Assembly (NCBI GenBank): GCA_028386065.3
Contig: JAKUCV010007289.1
Location: forward strand, 17,017-81,016
Source of the DNA: Turnera subulata
Lineage: Eukaryota > Streptophyta > Magnoliopsida > Malpighiales > Passifloraceae
Length of the DNA stretch: 64,000 nt
Direction of reading: 5' to 3'
Position 1 is the first letter of the stretch, and each line of letters opens with the position of its first letter. A model generated the notes under the pieces. That model did no database searches and was not told the origin of the DNA. It was given only the letters and a program-made list of their open reading frames with translations. Below are positions 2,515 to 33,546 of this stretch, piece by piece. The position numbers and the translations under genes were made by a program.

Positions 2515-3078
2515 GGTAATTCTACAACAAGATCAACTCACACAAATAATAGTCATGCATACAAATCATTTAATAAGGAATTCTATTAAATGTACTCCTA
2601 CTATATAAATCAAGACAATTATATAAGTAGGCCAAGATCCATATTTCACTACAACATAAGTCAGCTAGGGCTGATCACCTACATCATAGCTATTTAGGTA
2701 GACAACTCTTGTCAATTACATCTCTATGTAACTCTTGGATAGTTGAGTGAACAACACCTTGTCCAAGTCTATCTTATAGACATTGCTCAACCCTTGCCTC
2801 TAGGTTCTTAATCCTATTAAGGTAACCTAGTTAAGTCCAAACCCACAACAAGCAATCGGGATATTACAATTATCCTCTCGAACCTTGCTAGGATAAACAT
2901 AGGCACCTTGCTAGGGCAAAACCTACCTAGTGTTGATCTAAGCAATGATTAGTGCTCATCATGGAAGGCAACTAAGAACTTAATATTTCATCAACATATG
3001 TTTCCAACACATCACATGCTTGTTCTTGATAAATCATACATTGATGTTAAGCAAATTTGGAAAACAAAAATGCAAGTG

Positions 3079-3827
3079 AACATCGATGTCCATAAATGAA
3101 CATCGATGTCTATGAGAATCTGATTCTCGCCAACAATTGGCAGCACTTAGTATTTCGGCCATATCCGGAGCTATAGAGCTCGGATTTGTGCAAACTTGGT
3201 GTCCCTGGAAAGCTAAGAAGTAGAGCTACAACTTTGCTGTTCAGGCCAGACACCAATTCGGCCTCCTTCTGTACTCAATTTGCTGTTGAAGTAGCTGCAG
3301 TCCACAACATCGATGTTGAACCCTTCAACATCGATGTTTGGAGTTTGCGAATCCATAAAACATCGATGTTTTCAAGCAAACATCGATGTTGGAGATTGCC
3401 GAATGCATAAAACATCGATGTTGACACTTAAACATCGATGTTTGAGTACTTGAACTCCAAACCATTTGGCAGTAGCTCAAAAACATCGATGTTGGACATT
3501 AAAACATCGATGTTTTGAGTACTTGAAAGTTCAATATCTTGGCAGTAGCATTATAACATCGATGTTTAACATTTAAACATCGATGTTTTGGTCCTGGAAC
3601 TCAAGAACATCGATGTTGACACTCAAACATCGATGTTGTTGGAGCTCTGGAACTCAAACCAATTTCGCCGAGCTCAAATAACATCGATGTTTAACATTTA
3701 AACATCGATGTTGTTGAGTGTCTGCATGAAAACATCGATGTTGACTATACAACATCGATGTTTTGGAGATTCGGCCAAGGCCAATCTTCAGGCCAACATC
3801 GATGTTGGTCACAGCAACATCGATGTT
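3079..3827. repeat. Array of paired AACATCGATGTT palindromes in the leader of element A
   Basis: Twenty copies in ten pairs start at 3079/3099, 3306/3327, 3359/3379, 3411/3431, 3482/3503, 3555/3576, 3606/3626, 3680/3701, 3731/3751 and 3795/3816. Eighteen match the 12-mer exactly; the first pair ends in C. Start-to-start distance within a pair is always 20 or 21 bp. Successive pairs start about 51-53, 64 or 71-74 bp apart. The array lies between the primer binding site and gag. A further palindrome, GAACGA-N3-TCGTTC, lies at 3845-3859. Confidence 0.95.
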
Positions 3828-7476: not shown

Positions 7477-7489
7477 TGGTTGCGGAGCC
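7477..7489 (+). other. Primer binding site of element B
   Basis: TGGTTGCGGAGCC begins two bases after the LTR end. It differs from the site of element A by one base. It fixes the 3' border of the 5' LTR. Confidence 0.65.
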
Positions 7490-7819: not shown

Positions 7820-8313
7820 AACAACGATGTTCTAATGAAGATTGGCTTTGGCAGAATCTTGAAACATCGATTTTCAAGAGTTAAACATCGATGTTCTCAT
7901 GACGAGTGGCCTTGGCAGAACTCTCAAACATCGATGTTCAAGAGTTAAACATCGATATTCTAGAGCACTGCCAAATTAGTTTGAGCTCCAGAAATCTCAA
8001 ACAACGATGTTTAAAAGTTAGACATCAATGTTTAAAACTACTGCCAGAAATCTTGAACTTCCAGAACTTCAAGACATCGATGTTCACAAGTTAAAGATCG
8101 ATGTTCTTGGGCTTTGCCAAAAGATTTCGAGTTCCAGAATTCTCAAACATCGATGTGTAAGAGTTAAACATCGATGTTAAAGAGTCAGACATTGATGCTC
8201 AAGAGTCAGAAATCGATGGTCAAGAGTTAAACATCGATGTTCTTGAACACTGCCAAGTAGTTGGGAGAATCAGATTCTCACAACATCGAAGTTCAAAGTT
8301 AGACATCGACGTT
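7820..8313. repeat. Palindrome array in the leader of element B, with a 21-bp ladder
   Basis: Copies of AACATCGATGTT, many with one or two changes, start at 7820, 7863/7884, 7927/7948, 8001/8022, 8073/8094, 8146/8167/8188/8209/8230 and 8282/8302. The run of five is an exact 21-bp ladder with a similar linker (AAGAGTTA or AAGAGTCA). The position matches the array of element A. A palindrome GAACGATAGTCGTTC lies just upstream at 7756-7770. Confidence 0.93.
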
Positions 8314-8877: not shown

Positions 8878-9783
8878 ATGACACAAAACACTAGTAAACA
8901 ATCACTGCGATCTGTCCTTGAGAAGGAAAAGCTGAATGAGAATAACTTCCTAAAGTGGCATCGCAATTTGAGGATAGTCCTCAAACAAGAAAAGAAGTTG
9001 TATGTCCTAGAAGGGCCCGTTCCAAATGAACTGGCGCCTAATGCTCCTAGGGCGGAAAGAGATGCTTACAAGAAGCATCTTGATGATGCATTGGATGTTG
9101 CATGCCTTATGCTTGTTAACATGGACTCTGAGCTTAAGAAGCAACATGAGAACTTGGGTGCGTTCGATATGATCGAACATCTGAAAATGCTTTTTGATGA
9201 GCAAGCAAGGTATGAGAGGTATGAGACCTCTAAGACATTGTTCTAATGCAAGATGGCTGAGTCATCACCGGTGAGACTTCATGTGCTCAAAATGATTGGG
9301 TACATTGAGAGCCTTGAGGGTCTAGGTTTTCCTTTGCAAAAGGAGTTGGCTGTTGATCTAGTCCTGCAATCGTTGCCAGATAGTTACAGCCAATTTGTCA
9401 TGAATTTCAATATGAATCTTCTTGACAAATATTTGTCTGAGTTGTTTAATATGTTAGGAACAGTTGAGCAACAAATGAAGGCAAACAAATCCAACAACAT
9501 TTTGATGGTTGGAAAAGGCAAAGGAAAGGGTAAAGCCAAGTTTTACAAGAAGAATAAATGTGCCAAAAGGTTTGGTGCATGTGCATCTTCTTGTTCCCAT
9601 GTGCTGAAACCCAAAGGTGGTATTGCGAAGGAAGGACAATGTTTCCATTGCAATAAACCTAGCCATTGGAAACGCAACTGCCCTATTTACCTTGAAGAGG
9701 TGAAGAAACAGAAGGGAAGTAAGACTTCCACTTCAGGTATTTTTGTTATAGAAGCTAATATCTCATCTCTGCATCATGGGTAC
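8878..9783 (+). pseudogene. Copia gag of element B
   Basis: The frame starts MTQNTSKQSL and carries the copia gag core with FLKWHRNLRIVLKQEKKLYV and later DMIEHLKMLFDEQARYERYE. A stop at 9244-9246 (TAA where CAA/Gln is expected) splits it; the same frame continues from 9247. A zinc knuckle CFHCNKPSHWKRNC (C-x2-C-x4-H-x4-C) is encoded near 9639-9680. Gag would coat the RNA in virus-like particles. The Gln-to-stop change fits C-to-T decay of methylated DNA. Confidence 0.88.
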
Positions 9784-23776: not shown

Positions 23777-24642
23777 TGAAGGTATGCCCTATTTTCTAGA
23801 TGTATGTACTTTGATGGATTTACTCTTCCTCTTGTATGCATGTATGCGTGTTTGTTTCCCTATGTGTGAACTGCAACCATGTATGCTTTTTTTTTTCAAA
23901 AAATTACCAAGTCGTATGTCATGTGCGTCAAGTTGGTCTAGATGTTGGTTTGGTGGGTTTCCACCAGGTTTCAAATTCCCCCACTCTCATTCATTTAATG
24001 AATCACGAAAGACTATTCTAGGCAGCTCCATCAATGGCATTGACCCAAGTCACCCAAAACATCGTTAGCCCTAACTTTTGCATAGGCCGCCCTTTCGGGT
24101 TTTCAACCTGTTAGAACAGGTGCCCTACACTAGGGGGGGTGATTGGCGTTTTTCGGACAAATTCAAAAACTTGCAGGAAATAAATGCAGAATTGAAAGAA
24201 TAAGGACACACCAAAATTTATACTGGTTCACACACACAACTTGTGTGGCTAATCCAGTCCTCCGAGAGACTCTTTCAAAGATTTCTCTAACTAGGTTAAT
24301 GTTCCGGGTGCTTAACAAACCGTATACAAAACTAGAGCTCGAGTCACACGAAACTCTGCTTGCTTGAAGATACCTCACTTCAAGACTTCTCTCAAGAAAG
24401 AAAAACACTCTTCCTATGAGTTACTACAAGGGAACAATCCTCCCTTAAAAGTGTATGAAAAACTCTTAAAATCACTCAAACAGAAGCTCTCTTAAAGAGT
24501 GGATATGAGTAACAAGTAAAGCTCTATAAAGGCAACTCTCAAATCTCAAGAAAATTGGCTCATTAAAAATTGCAATGTATGTATGATAATTGATGCTTAA
24601 AATGTAGAGAGTTGATTCTATTAAACAGAGATGTAAATCCTC

Positions 24643-24651
24643 TATTTATAT
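24643..24651 (-). promoter_or_regulatory. TATA box of the G LTR (3' copy)
   Basis: The minus strand reads ACATATAAATAGAGGA. The nearest palindrome of the upstream array starts 97 bp away at 24748. The 5' LTR shows the same spacing. Confidence 0.75.
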
Positions 24652-24747
24652 GTCTCAAAACATGTATAATCGTTATGGAATCAATCCAAAACACCTTTAG
24701 ACAAAATGGCATTGGGAGTTGAAAAAGGTATCTGCTCACAACGGCAC

Positions 24748-25260
24748 AACATCGATATTTAGGTATGGAACAACGATGTTTTAGCCAGTAAATTTGAAAT
24801 TTTGGGCTAACGGTCATGAGAACATCGATGTTTTAGGAATGAACATCGACAATTATGACAGCTAATAGGGATTATTAGGTCTAACGGCTCCCAAAACATC
24901 GATGTTTGCCATGGGAACATCGATGTTTTGAAACACTGCCAAAACAGATTAAAGATGAGCATCATGGGAGCATTGATGTCTTAATGATGAACATTGATGT
25001 TTGATGTTGGAACATCGATGTTGGCCATTCGGACATCGATGTTTTGAGCCTCTGCCGAAGTTCTAAAGAAAACAAATTGAGGGAACATCGATGTCTTGAA
25101 TTGGAACATTGATGTTCTGGTGCTGCAAAGATTTTTAAGTGCAACGGTCACAAGAACATCGATGTTTGGGAAGCCAACATCGATGTTCTGGGCTACTGCC
25201 TGTTTTCTGGAACATTGTTAGGCAGGAACATCGATGTTTGAAAACATGAACATCGATGTT
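24748..25260. repeat. Palindrome array in U3 of the 3' LTR of G
   Basis: Sixteen copies start at 24748/24769, 24821/24842, 24895/24916, 24969/24990/25011/25032, 25084/25105, 25155/25176 and 25227/25249. Starts within a set are 21 bp apart (22 in the last pair). Several copies are decayed, for example ACATTGATGTT, where CG became TG. Confidence 0.95.
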
Positions 25261-25549
25261 CAATACTCAAAAATTATTTTTGTGTTTGAAAGAATGCTAT
25301 TTGATGCATTTGTAAAATTGATTTTGTTTTGAGCCAATGTCTTTAGAAGAATTGAGTGTTTTACCCTTGTACATTTTGTGTTCGTAACCCATCTTGCTTG
25401 TTACTTCAATTCTTGTGCTCTTTTCTCTTTGGACCTTTGTTCTTTGATTGATTTCTTTTTGCTTCAAGGTTCTTTGTCATCAATTGAGTCATGCTTTGTT
25501 TGTCAATATCAAAACCCTGAAATGAGACAAGGAGACATGAGTTCTTACA

Positions 25550-25567
25550 ATTTCCCCCTTTTTGATA
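25550..25567 (-). other. Polypurine tract of element G
   Basis: The minus strand reads ATCAAAAAGGGGGAAAT directly before the 3' LTR. This is a textbook position and composition for the plus-strand primer. Confidence 0.85.
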
Positions 25568-25734
25568 ATGACAAACAAATAAGAGTATATGCCAAGTTTT
25601 ATGAATGTAATTCCCCCTAACTTGGTGCATATTACTTCTTCTTATCTTCCCCCTTTTGGCATTGGCAAAAATAAATAGCAAGAGGAAATATTTTATTGAA
25701 TTGAAAAGACATAAACATAACAAGAGATAAGAGT

Positions 25735-27033
25735 TTAGAAAGTTGGGCTTTCGCTCCCATCATCATCCTCTTCTCCTTCAGCTGCTCCTTCAGCATCATC
25801 TCCTTCTTGACCATCCTCCACATCCATTGGATCTTCGTCCACAGTTTCAGTGTTGTCCTCATCATCATCATCACCTTCATCGTCAAAATTGTAGCCGTGA
25901 AGTGTGGTGTGATATGGTGGAGGATTATAGTTCACACGGGCAAAGTAAGACCGAAGAGAGTGGCCTTGTCGTTGCACTTCCGTGTCAATCCTCTCTATTG
26001 CTCGGCTCATGCTTGTCATGCTTAATTGAAGACCATGGGTGGAATCAGCAATGGATTCAAGAGTGACTCCGGAGGGTTGGCGTCGAGAAGCGGCAGCACA
26101 GGAGCTTTCTGCTGAAGCAGTTCTTGGAGCTTGCTCGGAAGTTTGTCCGGTCTTTGGTTCTGCCACAGATTTTCTGCTGTGAAACGTGGCATCACTGATT
26201 GTCCAAAGTTTTGAGTGAGGAACCTGTGCACCGACGCAAGCATTGACACCTGCATGCAACAAAATGCACACGACTAGGAAGGGATATGGTAGGGGATGGT
26301 CAGGAAAGGTGGATGGATAGTCCGACATGTGCATAAGCACAAATCGTGCCCAATTAATTGGGGCATGGTGAAGGATGGCATGAAGCACTTTCATATCTTC
26401 AACGGATATGATTGTGTGGTTGCTGTCTCTTGGCTTGATGACCCGGGTGAGAAGGTAGAACAGAAGTCGGTACTCCGGGTTGATTGTCTGAATTGTTGGC
26501 CGCCCGGAACTGTGACGAACAAGGGTCGTAAAGCCAAGCTCATTCAGGAAGGGTGGTTCATGGATGGTGGCCCAATGATCACCTCCGTATGATGCAATAT
26601 GGTCTCCCTGAAAAGGCAAGGCAGCAACCGTGCCAAATTCTTCCAACGTCATGTTGATGGAGACTCCATTTACGTGAGCAGTCAGGCTATCACCATCTCG
26701 GCGGAGGGTGGAGTAAAAGGCTTGTACAAAGTCGCCACTGAATTGAAGCTGACTGTGGGTCACGAACCCCCATAATCTCGATGCTTGAAGAAGGGGCTCC
26801 AGCTGTGTGTAATTCTTCATGGCGGGGTAAATTGTCGGAAGATAACGAGGGGTTGTAATGACCCGCTTGGAGAAGTGAGACATGAAGTTGTGAAGGTCGG
26901 CCCTGGAAGAGAACCAAATGGAGGTGCCTTCCACGGCATAGCGAGGGGCTGAGCTGGACGAGCCTCCTCTTTGCTTGGATGGTCTCTCCTTAGCGGGAGA
27001 TTTGCCTTTGGAACTTTTCTTCCCACCTGTCAT
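25735..27033 (-). CDS. ORF3, accessory protein of copia element G (432 aa, intact)
   Basis: The frame is open for 432 codons from the ATG at 27033 (MTGGKKSSKG). An upstream in-frame Met at 27171 would add 46 hydrophobic residues, but it lies before the TATA-like box side of the leader, so the inner start is preferred. Residues 4-28 are basic and Ser-rich, like a nuclear signal. Residues 35-270 form a globular part (LQFSGDFVQAFYSTLRRD near 95-112, LEEFGTVAALPF near 130-141). It resembles the plant transposon-protein domain seen in many dicot annotations. Residues 325-356 could form a coiled coil, and 384-430 are strongly acidic. It sits where SIRE elements have their env-like ORF, but no signal peptide, transmembrane or envelope trait is visible. 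Function is unknown; a chromatin or DNA-binding role is inference. Confidence 0.8.
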   Translation of the reverse strand: MTGGKKSSKGKSPAKERPSKQRGGSSSSAPRYAVEGTSIWFSSRADLHNFMSHFSKRVITTPRYLPTIYPAMKNYTQLEPLLQASRLWGFVTHSQLQFSGDFVQAFYSTLRRDGDSLTAHVNGVSINMTLEEFGTVAALPFQGDHIASYGGDHWATIHEPPFLNELGFTTLVRHSSGRPTIQTINPEYRLLFYLLTRVIKPRDSNHTIISVEDMKVLHAILHHAPINWARFVLMHMSDYPSTFPDHPLPYPFLVVCILLHAGVNACVGAQVPHSKLWTISDATFHSRKSVAEPKTGQTSEQAPRTASAESSCAAASRRQPSGVTLESIADSTHGLQLSMTSMSRAIERIDTEVQRQGHSLRSYFARVNYNPPPYHTTLHGYNFDDEGDDDDEDNTETVDEDPMDVEDGQEGDDAEGAAEGEEDDDGSESPTF

Positions 27034-27127
27034 ATTTGAGAAAAAAAAGAGTAGGAGAATGATGTGGAGAGTAAATATAGAGTGAATGAACAGTAGAAAG
27101 TGTGTAAAATGAGAGAAGGAGGCATCA

Positions 27128-27134
27128 CTTATAT
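27128..27134 (-). promoter_or_regulatory. TATA-like box upstream of ORF3
   Basis: The minus strand reads CCCCATATAAGTGATG, 95 bp before the ORF3 start. The nearest palindrome of the spacer array starts 91 bp further upstream (27225), nearly the spacing found in the LTR. Confidence 0.45.
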
Positions 27135-27224
27135 GGGGGAGCAAAAAATAGAGCCGTTGTAGTCCTTGCAACAGGCTCCAACGGCTAGTTAACGGCTATT
27201 TTTTTTTTGAATCACAAACGTATA

Positions 27225-27823
27225 AACATCGATGTCTGGTAAGAAGAACATCGATGTTGAGCCTCGCCAACGGCTATATTTTTGAAATTTTCACGGTCAA
27301 AATCGATGTTCTGGTTGAAGACATCGATGTTTGATTCCCCATCGGCTATATTTTTTTTTAAAAGTATGGTCGAAACATCGATGTTCATAAGTTCAACATC
27401 GATGTTGTGGAGCCTCTGGACAAAATCTGAAATGCCGACAATCGAGACAACATCGATGTTGGGGGGTGAGGACATCGATGTTTCAGACTATTGGAAAAGA
27501 GTTCAAGAACTCATGATAGAACATCGATGTCTTACCGGTAAGCATCGATGTTTAAAATTACTGGAAAAGAGGGTACTTACGGAACATCGATGTTTTGATA
27601 CTGAACATCGATGTTTAGGTATGCTGGTTAAAATCTTGATTCTGCACATGAGACAAACATCGATGTTGGGCGTAGACATCGATGTTGTAAGCTACTGGTT
27701 GAAAATGTGACGATCTCTAGTCCAGTCAACATCGATGTTTGATCCTCAACATCGATGTTTACGGCCTCAGGGCCAGTTTTGTATAGTCCAAACATCGATG
27801 TTTTGGTGTGCAACATCGTTGAT
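27225..27823. repeat. Palindrome array between pol and ORF3 of G
   Basis: Nine pairs start at 27225/27247, 27299/27320, 27374/27395, 27449/27471, 27520/27541, 27583/27604, 27656/27675, 27728/27748 and 27791/27812. Distances within pairs are 19-22 bp. Pairs start 63 or 71-75 bp apart. Most copies match AACATCGATGTT in 11 or 12 positions; the last is degraded. Sequence between pairs shares only loose words with the LTR arrays. Confidence 0.95.
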
Positions 27824-27957
27824 GAGCAGTCTCGGCATCCTTATTCCCCCTGTCTTTTTGCCTAAATGAGGTGTACCTGCAAATTAACTTAGAGTACACT
27901 CCGACGCTCAAGTCAGTAAAGAATCGATACGATAGAACCATACAAAAGTTGCACAAA

Positions 27958-28776
27958 TTAGATCAATGTTGAGTCAAGTATTCCTATTTCATTTCGAATT
28001 CGGAAGAACGACTCTTTCTCTAAAGGTTTGGTGAAAATATCGGCTAGTTGAAATTTTGTGTCCACAAATTCAACAGCTATGTCTCCCTTGAGAACGTGAT
28101 CTCTAATAAAGTGATGTCTAATATCAATATGTTTTGTCCTTGAATGTAAGAATGGATTCTTAGTTAGACTTATGGCACTAGTATTGTCACACCTAAGAGG
28201 AATTTGATTAATGGTACGACCATAATCCTCAAGTTGTTGTTTCATCCAAATGATTTGAGCACAACAACTACCAGCTGCCATGTATTCCGCCTCGGTGGTG
28301 GATAAGGCTACACTAGCTTGTTTTTTACTAAACCAAGAAACTAAGGAGCTGCCAAGTAAGTGACAAGTTCCACTAGTACTTTTACGATCTAGTTTGCATC
28401 CGGCAAAGTCTGAGTCAGAATAGCCTATGAGTTGAAGTGTAGAACCTTTAGGATACCATAGTCCAACATTAATTGTGCCTATTAGGTATTTCATAATTCT
28501 TTTAATTGCCTTAAGATGAGACTCTTTAGGACATGATTGATACCTAGCACATAAGCAAACACTAAGCATATTGTCTGGCCTACTTGCAGTTAAGTAGAGA
28601 AGGGATCCGATCATACCTCGATACTTTTTGAGCTCAACTTCCTTACCTTTCTCATCCTTATCTAAATGTTCGGAAATGCTCATTGGTGTTTCCATTTCCT
28701 TTGATCCGTCCATTTCAAAACGCTTAAGCAATTCCTTGCAATACTTTGACTGGGAGATGAATGTGCCTTCTTTCAT
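27958..28776 (-). pseudogene. Copia RNase H and end of reverse transcriptase, element G
   Basis: A 272-codon frame ends the polyprotein. It starts FISQSKYCKELLKRF and holds the RNase H residues in SDSDFAGCKLDRKSTSG, TTEAEYMAA, RCDNTSAI and HSRTKHIDIRHHFIRD. The C-terminus DIFTKPLEKESFFRIRNEIG is the usual copia end. A stop at about 28777 separates it from the preceding reverse transcriptase. The domain itself is uninterrupted. Confidence 0.88.
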
Positions 28777-30724
28777 TTGTTAGACTTGTAGGCCCAAAAA
28801 GAAGGTCAATTCTCCCATCATGGACATCTCAAATTCGCTGGCCATCATAGCAGAGAATTCCGTACACAAGGACAAGTTAGTAGCACCGAAAATTATATCA
28901 TCTACATAAATTTGTACTAAGAGCATTGTTTTTACTTTTAATAAAGAGTGTAGTATCAACCTTCCCTCTTTTGAACCCATTGTCCAAAAGAAATTTGCTC
29001 AAGCATTCATACCAAGCTCTAGGAGCTTGCTTAAGACCGTAGAGTGCTTTCTTAAGTCTGAAAACATGATCAGCAAAGCCTGGGGGTTGATTAACATACA
29101 CTTCTTCTTGAATGAAGCCATTTAGAAATGCACTTTTGACATCCATTTGATACAACTTAAAGTCCATTGATGATGCAAATGCAAGCAATAGGAGAATAGA
29201 TTCTAAGCGTCCAACAGGTGCATATGTTTCTTCAAAATCAATTCCCTCTTCTTGATTGTAGCCTTTTGCTACTAATCTAGCTTTGTTTCTAGTTATTATG
29301 CCATTTTCCTCTAGTTTATTTCCAAAAACCCATTTTGTGCCAATTATTGTATGACCAATGGGCCGTGGAACCAATTTCCAAACATCATTACGTTTGAATT
29401 GATTTAGCTCTTCTTGCATAGCCAAGGTCCAATGTTCATCATTAATTGCTTCAGAAATGGTTGTAGCCTCAATTTGTGAAACAAATGCCATATGACCTAT
29501 AGTGTTTCTAAGAGAATTACGAGTACTTACCCCGCGGTTGATATCACCAATTACCGTTTCAAGAGGATGGTCTTTCGATTCTTGCCATCCTCTAGGTAGT
29601 TCTTGATTGACATCAACCGTTGTTTCTTCCACGTTTGCGCTGTCTTGATGAGAAGATAATTCAGCAGGGGTATTTCCATCTTTGGGTAAGTGACTTGGCT
29701 CTTCTTCTTCTTTGTCACCCAAGGATATCTTCTCAAGTGTACCTACAAGATCATCACAAAAGTCCTTTCTCGCCAAGCGAGTATCATTTTCTGCAAACAC
29801 AACATGAGGGGACTCTTCAACATTTAAAGTGCGTTTATTGAAGACTCTATACGCTTTGTTGCACAATGAATAACCGAGAAAGATTCCTTCATCAGATTTT
29901 GCATCGAATTTTCCCAAATTGTCTTTCCCATTATTATGAACAAAACATTTGCATCCAAAGACTCGTAAATGAGAAATGTTAGGCTTTCGTCCCTTGTATA
30001 ATTCATAGGGCGTTTTCATGAGTATTGGCCTAATAATTGCTCGGTTTAACACATAGCAGGTCGTACTCACTGCATCAGCCCAGAAATACTTGGGAATTTT
30101 AGCCTCATTGAGCATTGTTCTTGCCATTTCCTCAAGACACCGATTCTTGCGTTCAACAACGCCATTTTGTTGTGGTGTCCGAGGGGCTGAGAAATCATGC
30201 TCAATGCCATGTTTATCACAAAAAGTTGAAAATTGATTATTTTCGAATTCACCTCCATGATCACTTCTAATGTAAGCAATTGAACAATCTTTTTCATTTT
30301 GAATTTTCTTAAGAAAGCTCTTGAAAACATTAATTGCTTCACTTTTATGTGTAAGAAATAAGGTCCAAGTGTATCTTGTGTAATCATCAACAATTACAAA
30401 GGCATAATAGTTACCTCCAAGGCTTTTGGTTTGTGAGGGACCAAAGAGATCCATGTGCAAAAGTTGAAGTGGTCTAGATGTTGAGACAACGTTCTTGGAA
30501 TTGAACGAAGCTCTCACTTGCTTCCCCTTTTGACATGCATCACATATAGAATTCTTCTCAAATTTAATCTTTGGAATACCAACCACTAAGTCTTGAGTCA
30601 CCAATTTGTTTAACATCTTCATATTAACGTGAGCTATTCTACGATGCCATAACCACATATCATCTTCTTTGCTCATTAGACATTTTGAAAACTTTGATGA
30701 AGACTCTTCCAAGTTAACCATTTA
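28777..30724 (-). pseudogene. Copia integrase and reverse transcriptase, element G
   Basis: A long frame at 30721-28898 starts in the pre-integrase zinc region ([20 protein letters not shown]). It contains the integrase triad context [17 protein letters not shown] and [12 protein letters not shown], then the reverse transcriptase with [22 protein letters not shown] and [13 protein letters not shown] frameshift near 28900 puts the catalytic YVDDIIFG block (about 28895-28921) in another frame, followed by a stop. A stop just after 30721 divides it from protease. These enzymes copy the RNA and insert the DNA. Confidence 0.9.
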
Positions 30725-31100
30725 AATGTTGTCAATTCTATCACCATGTAGAATGATCTTATTATCACTAAGACGTTCTACGGTGCATGACTTGGAATAA
30801 AAAATCACACGATTTCCCTTGTCACATAATTGACTTATGCTCAAGAGATTGTGTTTAAGACCTTTAACTAGTAAAACATTATCAATGGAGGAAGATTCAT
30901 TTTTACCAACCGAGCCAATGCCGATGATCTAACCTTTGTTGTTGTCTCCAAAGACAATGTTTCCTCCATTTGATGGCTTAATTTGCAAGAACTTAGACGC
31001 TTCTCCGGTCATGTGCTTGGAGCATCCGCTATCAAGGTACCAAAGTACACTTGATGCCTTCAAGCATACCTGCAAAAGCAAATCAATGAGTTTTTGGCAC
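30725..31100 (-). pseudogene. Copia protease, element G
   Basis: The piece includes WYLDSGCSKHMTG near 31045-31005, with the DSG catalytic triplet of copia aspartic proteases, and later NIVFGDNNKG. A stop near 30930 and another before 30721 interrupt it. In frame it would follow gag directly and cleave the polyprotein. Confidence 0.8.
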
Positions 31101-32049
31101 CCAAATCTTCTTGGGTCCTTGAGTGTTAGGAGCATAGTGGTAATGAGCTTCTTCTTGCGCCCAATGCCTATGCCTAGTAAAGCAAACAGGAGCAATGTGT
31201 CCTATTCTATTGCAATAATGGCAAATAACGTTTGGGTTGTGCATCCATCTCGGATGATAATAGTTATTATGTTGCCTATGTTTGTGCACTTTACTCACCT
31301 TGTTTTCCTTAGGTTGAACCTTAGGTTTCCTAGGCTTAGTCTCAATTTTCTTCTTCTTAGGCTCATTTTTTAATCCTACTCCATGTTTAGTTGATTGCAA
31401 ATTACCTAAGAGAGAATTCAACTTCTTTTGAGGGGTGTTAAATTTCTTGAGTGTTGTTTCAAGTTCATTAACTTGTTCTTTTAATGTCTCACATGATAAA
31501 CACTCCCTAGTTTTTGTTTCAAGTTCTCCAATTTGTTCCTTTGGTGATTTACATGATGCACATTCCTTAATTGGACTTTCCGGTTCATTAGTACTCTTCT
31601 TTCCGTAGAGTCCATGTTCATCTTTAAGTTTTACATTTTCTATAGACAATTTTTCCACATTATTTTCTAAAGTTGTAATTTGTCTCTTCTTCATCGCTGT
31701 CGGATGATTCATCACTGGAATCGCCTCCCCAAGAGATGTATGTCCTTTACTTCTTGTAGGGCTTCTTTTCCGCACAATAGAGCATGTTGATTGATTTGGC
31801 GTTGTTTCCAACCATCGTAATGTCTGCAGCGTTATACTCCTCCTCTGTCTTTGGCACTGTGATTTCACCAACTTTGTTCGTCGGAATTTGCTCTCCGATC
31901 TTCATGATTCGCCAAAGAGCATAGTTGTTGGATTGGAGGAAGATTCTCATCCTCTCCTTCCAGTAGCTGTAGTTGGTGCCATCAAAGAGCGGTGGACGAG
32001 TGGTTGATTGTCCTTCGAAAAGTCCTGCATAATTACTTGAAGAAGCCAT
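31083..32049 (-). pseudogene. Copia gag of element G, central part deleted
   Basis: The start MASSSNYAGLFEG at 32049 and PPLFDGTNYSYWKERM are typical of SIRE-type gag. After about 100 codons (KKPYKK, stop at 31747) the sequence jumps to the Ser/Glu-rich part near SSDES, so most of the capsid core is missing. The C-terminal part in another frame has a long charged region and a zinc knuckle CHYCNRIGHIAPVC (C-x2-C-x4-H-x4-C). The start codon lies only about 40 bp after the primer site. Such a gag could not build a particle by itself. Confidence 0.85.
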
Positions 32050-32089
32050 GGAAAGTTTCTCTCAAATGGTTAAGTCTTTCAGAGAGTTA

Positions 32090-32102
32090 GGCTCCGCTAC
32101 CA
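32090..32102 (-). other. Primer binding site of element G
   Basis: The minus strand reads TGGTAGCGGAGCC two bases after the LTR end. It is identical to the site of element A although the two families differ in gag and pol. Confidence 0.75.
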
Positions 32103-32645
32103 ATTGTTAGAACAGGTGCCCTATGCTAGAGGGGGGGGGGGGGGGGAATAGCGTTTTTCGGACAAATTCAAAAACTTGCAGGAAATAAATGCGGAATTGA
32201 AAGAATAAGGACACACCAAAATTTATACTGGTTCATGCACACAACTTGTGTGGCTAATCCAGTCCTCCGAGAGACTCTCTCGAAGATTTCTCTAACTAGG
32301 TTAAGCTTCCGGGTGCTTAACAAATCGTATACAAAACTAGAGCTCGAGTCACACGAAACTCTGCTTGCTTGAAGATACCTCACTTCAAGATTTCTCTCAA
32401 GAAAGAAAAACACTCTTCCTATGAGTTACTACAAGGGAACAATCCTCCCTTAAAGGTGTATGCAACTCTTAAAATCACTCAAACAGAAGCTCTCTTAAAG
32501 AGTGGATATGAGTAACAAGTAAAGCTCTATAAAGGCAACTCTCAATTCTCAAGGAAATTGGCTCATTAAAAATTGCAATGTATGTATGATAATTGATGCT
32601 TAAAATGTAGAGAGTTGATTCTAATAAACAGAGATGTAAATCCTC

Positions 32646-32654
32646 TATTTATAT
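32646..32654 (-). promoter_or_regulatory. TATA box of the G LTR (5' copy)
   Basis: The minus strand reads ACATATAAATAGAGGA. It lies 97 bp downstream of the last palindrome (32751) and would drive the genomic RNA. Confidence 0.78.
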
Positions 32655-32750
32655 GTCTCAAAACATGTATAATCGTTATGGAATCAATCCAAAACACCTT
32701 TAGACAAAATGGCATGGGGAGTTGAAAAAGGTGTCTGCTCACAACGACAC

Positions 32751-33262
32751 AACATCGATGTTTAGGTATGGAACATCGATGTTTTAGCCAGTAAACTTGA
32801 AATTTTGGGCTAACGGTCATGAGAACATCGATGTTTTAGGAATGAACATCGATGTTGTGACAGCTAATATGGATTATTAGGTCTAACGGTTACCAAAACA
32901 TCGATGTTTGCCATGGGAACATCGATGTTTTGAAACACTGCCAAAACAGATTAAAGATGAGCATCATGGGAACATCGATGTCTTAATGATGAACATCGAT
33001 GTTTGATGTTGGAACATCGATGTTGGCCATTCGGACATCGATGTTTTGAGCCTCTGCCGAAGTTCTAAAAAAAACAAATTGAGGGAACATCGATGTCTTG
33101 AATTGGAACATCGATGTTCTGGTGCTGCAAAGAGTTTTAAGTGCAACGGTCACAAGAACATCGATGTTTGGGAAGCCAACATCGATGTTTTGGGCTACTG
33201 CCTGTTTTCTGGAACATTGTTAGGCAGGAACATCGATGTTTGAAAACATGAACATCGATGTT
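32751..33262. repeat. Palindrome array in U3 of the 5' LTR of G (best preserved)
   Basis: Sixteen copies start at 32751/32772, 32824/32845, 32897/32918, 32971/32992/33013/33034, 33086/33107, 33157/33178 and 33229/33251. All match the 12-mer in at least 11 positions. Spacing is 21 bp in every set except the last (22). Sets begin 71-74 or 52 bp apart. The 9-bp linkers (TAGGTATGG, TTAGGAATG, TGCCATGGG, TGGGAAGCC and others) differ from each other. Confidence 0.97.
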
Positions 33263-33546
33263 CAACACACAAAAATCATTTTTGTGTTTGAATTTGATGC
33301 ATGTGTAAAATTGATTTTGTTTTGAGCCAATGTCTTTAGAAGAATCGAGTGTTTTACCGTTGTACATTTTGTGTTCCTAACCCATCTTGCTTGTTACTTC
33401 AATTCTTGTGCTCTTTTCTCTTTGGACCTTTGTTCTTTGATTGATTTCTTTTTGCTTCCAAATTGTTTGTCATCAATTGAGTCATGCTTTGTTTGTCAAT
33501 ATCAAAACCTGAATTGAGACAAGGAGACATGAGTTCTAACACAACC

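Follow-up and report, generated by a model that had tools for sequence, protein, structure and literature searches.

Paired palindromes at helically phased intervals in three Copia lineages of Turnera subulata: candidate promoter arrays for a dimeric DNA-binding protein

A complete Copia element of 9.4 kb lies on the minus strand at 24109..33541 of the window, the 64,000-nucleotide stretch of Turnera subulata DNA that was analysed. The element was recognised from its LTR pair, its RVT_2, rve and gag domains, a PPT cluster and a CA/ATTGG junction, and CAACC is found on both sides of it (24104-24108 and 33542-33546). Its LTRs, delimited as a pair and both on the minus strand, span 32105..33541 (5′ LTR) and 24109..25549 (3′ LTR). 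Pieces of gag, integrase and reverse transcriptase are spread over several frames, and the ENV position is occupied by an extra open reading frame (aORF) of 432 aa at 25735..27033 (minus strand), with a basic N-terminus, a PF20167-like domain and an acidic C-terminus. Four GGGGGAA PPTs were located in the element, three of them at most about 105 bp from the 3′ LTR; five were located in another element of the genome, L036. The junction between 5′ LTR and PBS is CTAACAATTGGTAGCGGAGC. Clustered PPTs and the CA/ATTGG junction are both given as Sirevirus marks in the accessible text of Bousios et al. 2010 (PMC2829016), and the lineage of the window element, which carries these hallmarks, is called S below. 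The junction was also present in a second lineage, A, and absent from a third, Y, so that it does not separate S from A.

By site scan, 16 copies of the palindrome AACATCGATGTT, mostly in pairs 21 bp apart, were found in the U3 of the 5′ LTR at 32751..33262. Thirteen are exact and three carry one mismatch (32971, 33034 and 33086). An array of 16 copies with starts 21 bp apart within sets (22 bp once) had been claimed in the initial annotation and was borne out by this count; 50-53 bp lie between sets, and one set holds four sites. The counterpart in the 3′ LTR, placed at 24748..25260 by site scan and LTR comparison, has more point changes than the array of the 5′ LTR. An internal array with linkers of its own, comprising 18 sites at no more than two mismatches, is situated between pol and the extra ORF at 27225..27823. 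Over the whole window, 84 sites were counted at up to two mismatches, where 100 dinucleotide shuffles gave 4.27 on average and never more than 10. Exact AACATCGATGTT-N9-AACATCGATGTT pairs numbered 20,153 genome-wide (518.7 Mb, 7125 contigs), against 11 for the reversed control pattern. When sequence collections were searched with the pair pattern, the viral one yielded no stretch and the prokaryote one five. Two arbitrary stretches of the genome, L038 and L039, contained no site; L039 nonetheless has a Copia pol match.

Both arrays of the window element stand ahead of a TATA box in the sense of the element. The LTR promoter carries ATATAAATAG at 32645..32654 (minus strand), 97 bp from the edge of the U3 array, and the internal promoter carries CCATATAAG at 27128..27136 (minus strand), 91 bp from the internal array and about 100 bp ahead of the extra ORF. 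The survey was extended to the 30 best aORF loci among 97 scored matches, themselves taken from 1802 first-look candidates. At least one array was present in the 1.5-kb flanks of all 30, and arrays of at least ten sites were obtained for 28 internal and 27 U3 positions. Where the pattern search found a box, the internal array and its TATA were 84-91 bp apart in 25 of 27 loci (76 and 96 bp in the other two), and the U3 TATA lay at 80 or 96-97 bp in all 24. The first TATA-like box in U3 was at 80 bp in 13 loci, 11 of which had another at 96, and at 96-97 bp in the remaining 11. No box was detected by this search at three U3 and two internal arrays.

As a side observation, AACGG words occur in long linkers and before the internal TATA, for example at 32810-32819 and 27170-27200 of the window. 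The 80 linkers contain 13 of them, where shuffles gave 3.7 (at most 9), and none was seen in the five arrays of lineages Y and A. Such words resemble the MSA element of MYB3R (cell-cycle Myb) factors; full matches to the MSA consensus numbered only three in the 80 linkers.

Arrays of this type, clusters of a palindromic motif, have already been described for Sireviruses as repeated motifs (RMs), and the window element fits the layout given for them in the available passages of PMC2829016. As in that layout, a palindromic unit is present in at least eight copies, here 16, clustered in U3 upstream of TATA. Also in agreement with it, a second cluster stands upstream of the gene at the ENV position and only where that gene is present: the sole negative element, L036, has neither an aORF match nor a linker array, and has a U3 array. 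Twelve of the 13 motifs listed there have a CGG-CCG core; AACATCGATGTT is not among the 13, and its core is instead ATCGAT, in common with the published exception, the motif ACAATCGATTGT of tobacco Tnd-1 (PMC2829016). RMs are further called Sirevirus-specific and absent from classic Copia in the same passages, whereas AACATCGATGTT was also found in two lineages judged non-Sirevirus, with the array downstream of TATA or in the leader.

The three Copia lineages that have the motif in common were assigned as follows. Lineage Y comprises two elements of the window and L035, all with the array in the leader. One window element is on the plus strand, with its array at 7820..8313 between PBS and gag (PBS-like site near 7477, gag ORF piece at 9253); the other is on the minus strand, with its leader array at 3037..3827. 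Lineage A comprises L037 and L044, which are short Copia elements. L037 is about 5.4 kb long and its LTRs measure 560 and about 700 bp; a linker domain is all but missing, gag is of the Retrotran_gag_2 type, and pol is about 38-41% identical to that of the window element. In lineage A the array is placed ahead of the PBS, about 175-375 bp past the TATA box. Pieces of RT and pol from S, Y and A shared roughly 30-48% identity between lineages by tblastn. Lineages A and Y were judged to be non-Sirevirus from size, linker, PPTs and pol identity, without a tree, and the extra ORF was not found in either among the copies searched. Their arrays are probably within the transcribed leader, where a role as RNA is conceivable.

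Some additional loci were taken as Sirevirus-like from their linker words (L045-L047); no pol match was found in these three, and L046 and L047 gave a gag-like match at 25% identity only. In L045 and L046-L047, U3-like arrays of about 20 sites recur at a distance of about 4 kb, and these loci are apparently non-autonomous copies; L047 has an additional partial array.

For the analysis of spacing, 1208 array sites were collected from 43 sequences (the window, L001, L006-L037 and L040-L048), which had been picked for arrays or the extra ORF and not randomly. After removal of alike linkers, 255 distinct intervals were retained, 248 of which fall within a quarter turn of n × 10.5 bp; in a smaller interval set the figure is 136 of 139. 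Secondary peaks near 42, 52, 63 and 73 bp had been predicted from the first array and appeared in the pooled loci at 42, 52-53, 63-64 and 73-74 bp, and the claim that the spacing keeps sites on one face of the helix is upheld by the phase of the intervals. Restricted to intervals above 24 bp, 136 of 142 are in phase. A shared ancestral repeat of about 73 bp accounts in part for the modes at 21 and 52-54 bp, which makes intervals of other lengths the fairer test. Between 28 and 68 bp and outside the 49-55 mode, 31 of 35 keep phase, although a few near 63 bp may hide a decayed site; owing to such sites and to the inherited modes, the intervals are not fully independent.

One stretch of a lineage-Y array, at 8146-8241 of the window, consists of five successive sites 21 bp apart, two of them with three mismatches. 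Its linkers are near-identical (CAAGAGTTA-like), as if the stretch had recently expanded by single 21-bp units.

Constancy of the motif was assessed by comparing copies. In the 28 internal arrays, motif divergence stays at 0.021-0.032 while divergence of the flanks spans 0.04-0.29 and that of the linkers 0.06-0.19. The 27 U3 arrays gave 0.031-0.039 for flank divergence up to 0.2, and the 26 most distant U3 pairs gave 0.166. The motif columns behind these ranges by flank class were picked by similarity to the motif, which is circular; to meet this, exact sites were defined from single reference copies in turn. The remaining copies then showed a mismatch of 0.018/0.024 for the motif, 0.139/0.127 for linkers and 0.199/0.219 for short linkers. 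Linkers as conserved as the motif would, according to the initial annotation, have spoken against its reading; between copies, the linkers diverge far more. In 101 pair clusters, the information content was 1.72-1.97 bits at 22 of the 24 motif positions, 1.44 and 1.47 bits at the two inner edges, and at most 0.35 bits in linkers and flanks, the scores being raised by the choice of sites with at most two mismatches. The base adjoining the motif only rarely extends the palindrome by T and A.

The two LTRs of one element are identical at insertion, and changes between them date from after it. Between the 5′ and 3′ LTR of the window element, 8 of 192 motif positions, 8 of 320 array-linker positions and 34 of 910 remaining positions have changed. 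After insertion the motif thus decays like its surroundings, without protection, which means that the motifs are not slow to mutate. From these comparisons of sequence, we infer that the motifs are kept constant in those copies that give rise to others.

The array also retains marks of tandem-repeat ancestry. CTGCCAA occurs in 18 of 80 linkers and in 9 of 14 arrays; after shuffling, no more than 6 linkers and 6 arrays contained it. Since long linkers share such words, the array probably descended from a repeat of about 73 bp whose linkers have diverged. The proposal that motif and spacing are conserved and that the array is not a plain tandem repeat thus stands for conservation, which goes well beyond that of the linkers, and is weakened for ancestry. 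Similarity of linkers also extends between lineages. With two arrays of uncertain lineage counted as S, besides L045, L046 and L048, the long linkers of Y and S reached a mean best score of 13.7, against at most 10.3 in 20 shuffles; those of A and S reached 11.8 against 11.2, a slight excess from five linkers. Being alike beyond shuffles, the arrays of Y and S probably share ancestry, or else have a second site, CTGCCAA, in common. Words shared between arrays, and the resemblance of Y and S linkers, could suggest a plain tandem repeat without function whose units are alike through recent expansion or conversion. Short linkers are, however, about ten times more diverged than the motifs at the same loci, and conversion would have carried the linkers along; motifs also decay like the remaining LTR after insertion. 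A functionless repeat is accordingly given very little credence.

Chromatin geometry could provide another account of the spacing, in which a 73-bp period matches half of a nucleosome and the pairs fix the rotational setting, with no dedicated factor. Pair and gap do often sum to about 73 bp. Yet the 1.7-2.0 bits at 22 of 24 motif positions are far more specific than rotational positioning requires, and the gaps from pair to pair vary (about 30, 42 and 52 bp) while the motif stays fixed, so that such an element appears highly improbable.

Neighbouring palindromes are complementary by construction, and the arrays could instead act as hairpins in RNA or single strands, with a 12-bp stem and a 9-nt loop, through small RNAs as has been proposed for maize Sireviruses, whose palindromic regions have small RNAs mapped to them in the accessible parts of PMC10760457 and PMC5311732. 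Variation within the motif peaks at the inner edge, where the loop would be closed (38 of 286, against at most 11 elsewhere), and among 143 strand-symmetric clusters 37 have a changed inner edge and 10 a changed outer edge. An inner edge more variable than the outer is allowed by a hairpin and by a protein site alike. A hairpin does not predict intervals in helical phase, nor does a hairpin between units need units that are themselves palindromic. Compensatory double changes numbered 2, against 13.6 on shuffling, in 337 unique arm-linker sequences, a set that is pseudo-replicated through the ancestral variants common to copies of a subfamily; counted by cluster, there was 1 against 2.5 expected, which is not significant with such small numbers. 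Inner changes that keep or break a wobble pair were about equally frequent (10 and 8 of 84 clusters). Taken together, hairpins are considered a rather unlikely basis for the arrays. Genome-wide, pairs with a single inner change were counted 1170 and 1243 times, from which about 72 of the double inner variant AACATCGATGTC-N9-GACATCGATGTT are expected (1170 × 1243 / 20,153). A mutual exclusion of inner-edge changes, considered as a separate candidate, was unsupported by the cluster-level count and was dropped.

Conservation of motif and spacing, phase and promoter adjacency fit a symmetric protein on neighbouring sites of the same helix face. The initial annotation, which had such a protein contact two sites at once, is borne out in part. 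The site is symmetric, the helix face is fixed and a promoter adjoins the array, the promoter being predicted from the TATA boxes of lineage S only. Taken together, the symmetric site, the pairs on one face, the phased intervals and the set TATA distances would be best explained by a homodimeric factor acting at promoters. Each AACATCGATGTT would receive one DNA-binding protein in the form of a symmetric homodimer; a distance of 21 bp between two sites would place two dimers side by side on one face, where they could cooperate, and further pairs would follow at whole numbers of turns. In lineage S the array would serve as upstream element of the LTR promoter and of the internal promoter of the extra ORF; in the two other Copia lineages, with the array downstream of TATA or in the leader, it could act in the manner of an enhancer. 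The motif serves three lineages, two of them with no extra ORF in the copies searched, and this leans towards a host factor. We regard it as fairly probable, on the pattern of sites, that the arrays are cis-regulatory and act at the level of DNA, with a putative homodimeric factor binding as neighbouring dimers. This factor would most likely be a transcription factor of the host, of which several Copia lineages make use. A literature search for a plant factor with a AACATCGATGTT site found none, and we know of none. AACATCGATGTT is also part of the glucocorticoid response element with a 4-bp spacer from crystal structures (PMC9976882 and PMC10297449, as far as accessible); the receptor is an animal one, and this overlap is taken as coincidence.

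The product of the extra ORF is itself a candidate for the binder. It would then be a self-encoded activator or anti-silencer, comparable to the VANC proteins of VANDAL elements and autoregulated through the internal array, and lineages Y and A would use it in trans. The ORF is driven by a TATA promoter with an array of its own, the 30 best of the 97 scored loci all have an array nearby, and a divergent aORF (56% identity, L048) is likewise accompanied by both arrays. Basic and acidic ends, such as those of the aORF protein, are often found in nuclear activators. Targets of VANC are likewise motif arrays in noncoding tandem repeats, according to the passages available of PMC5735166. The domain search recognised no DNA-binding domain in the aORF, its only match being PF20167 at 43.8 bits, below the curated cut-off of 45, and no relative in the PDB was found at E up to 1. 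The AlphaFold model (mean pLDDT 45) was too poor to serve as evidence for a DNA-binding protein and was discarded. In addition, the Sirevirus-like L036 keeps its U3 array with no ORF detected, and VANC motifs are largely private to one family in the accessible text of PMC5735166, whereas AACATCGATGTT is common to three lineages. A binder encoded by the extra ORF is for these reasons considered unlikely. An extension of it appears more doubtful still: as a portable cassette, the array would have passed from one Copia genus to another and would respond to a single trans factor, encoded by Sirevirus-like elements (the PF20167-like ORF, under an array promoter of its own). If true, it would amount to a VANC-like counter-silencing regulon run by a retrotransposon, with about 20,000 paired sites, and parasitised by other retrotransposons including gag-only ones.

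Database relatives of the aORF came from Turnera (58%) and Cuscuta (mostly about 40%), and a further homologue search gained few sequences. The relatives found thus belong only to Turnera subulata and Cuscuta campestris, a taxonomically odd pair; Cuscuta being parasitic, plant-to-plant transfer of such elements is conceivable.

The preferred reading, a dimeric factor on DNA, was compared with known systems. Tnt1 has repeated enhancer-like boxes in a Copia U3; to our knowledge, no fixed helical pairing of these boxes is known. VANDAL is a DNA transposon. As in VANC/VANDAL, a short motif is dense in noncoding parts of a mobile element, with tandem-repeat origin and diverged spacers; the VANC motif YAGTATTAY, however, has one orientation, is rare outside its family and has a known factor (PMC5735166 and PMC10398659, in the passages available), whereas the motif described here is a palindrome in Copia LTR elements and common to three lineages. 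Work on maize Sireviruses from 2016 describes clustered palindromes in the regulatory part of the LTR, read as secondary structure that attracts small RNAs (PMC10760457 and PMC5311732, in part), whereas spacing and variation in the present arrays favour a site at the DNA level. Neither unit spacing nor helical phase was found for RMs in the main-text passages of PMC2829016. As far as the literature found allows, the features that appear to be new are the motif as such, its occurrence in further Copia lineages, the two-turn pair with phased intervals, on which the 2016 maize paper may report spacing, and the neutral decay after insertion set against constancy between most copies.

As to what reads the palindromic arrays of Sireviruses, the literature found offers two proposals: stress factors in PMC2829016, and small RNAs together with secondary structure in PMC10760457, each as given in the accessible parts of the source. 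The two-turn pair, its phase, and neutral decay together with constancy between copies point to a putative DNA-binding protein whose copies cooperate, and the pair provides a 33-bp probe with which to look for it. Occurrence in other Copia lineages would make the array a trait that can be shared or transferred, and not one of Sireviruses only. Should the factor belong to the host, the genome would present it with a large sink of up to 40,000 sites.
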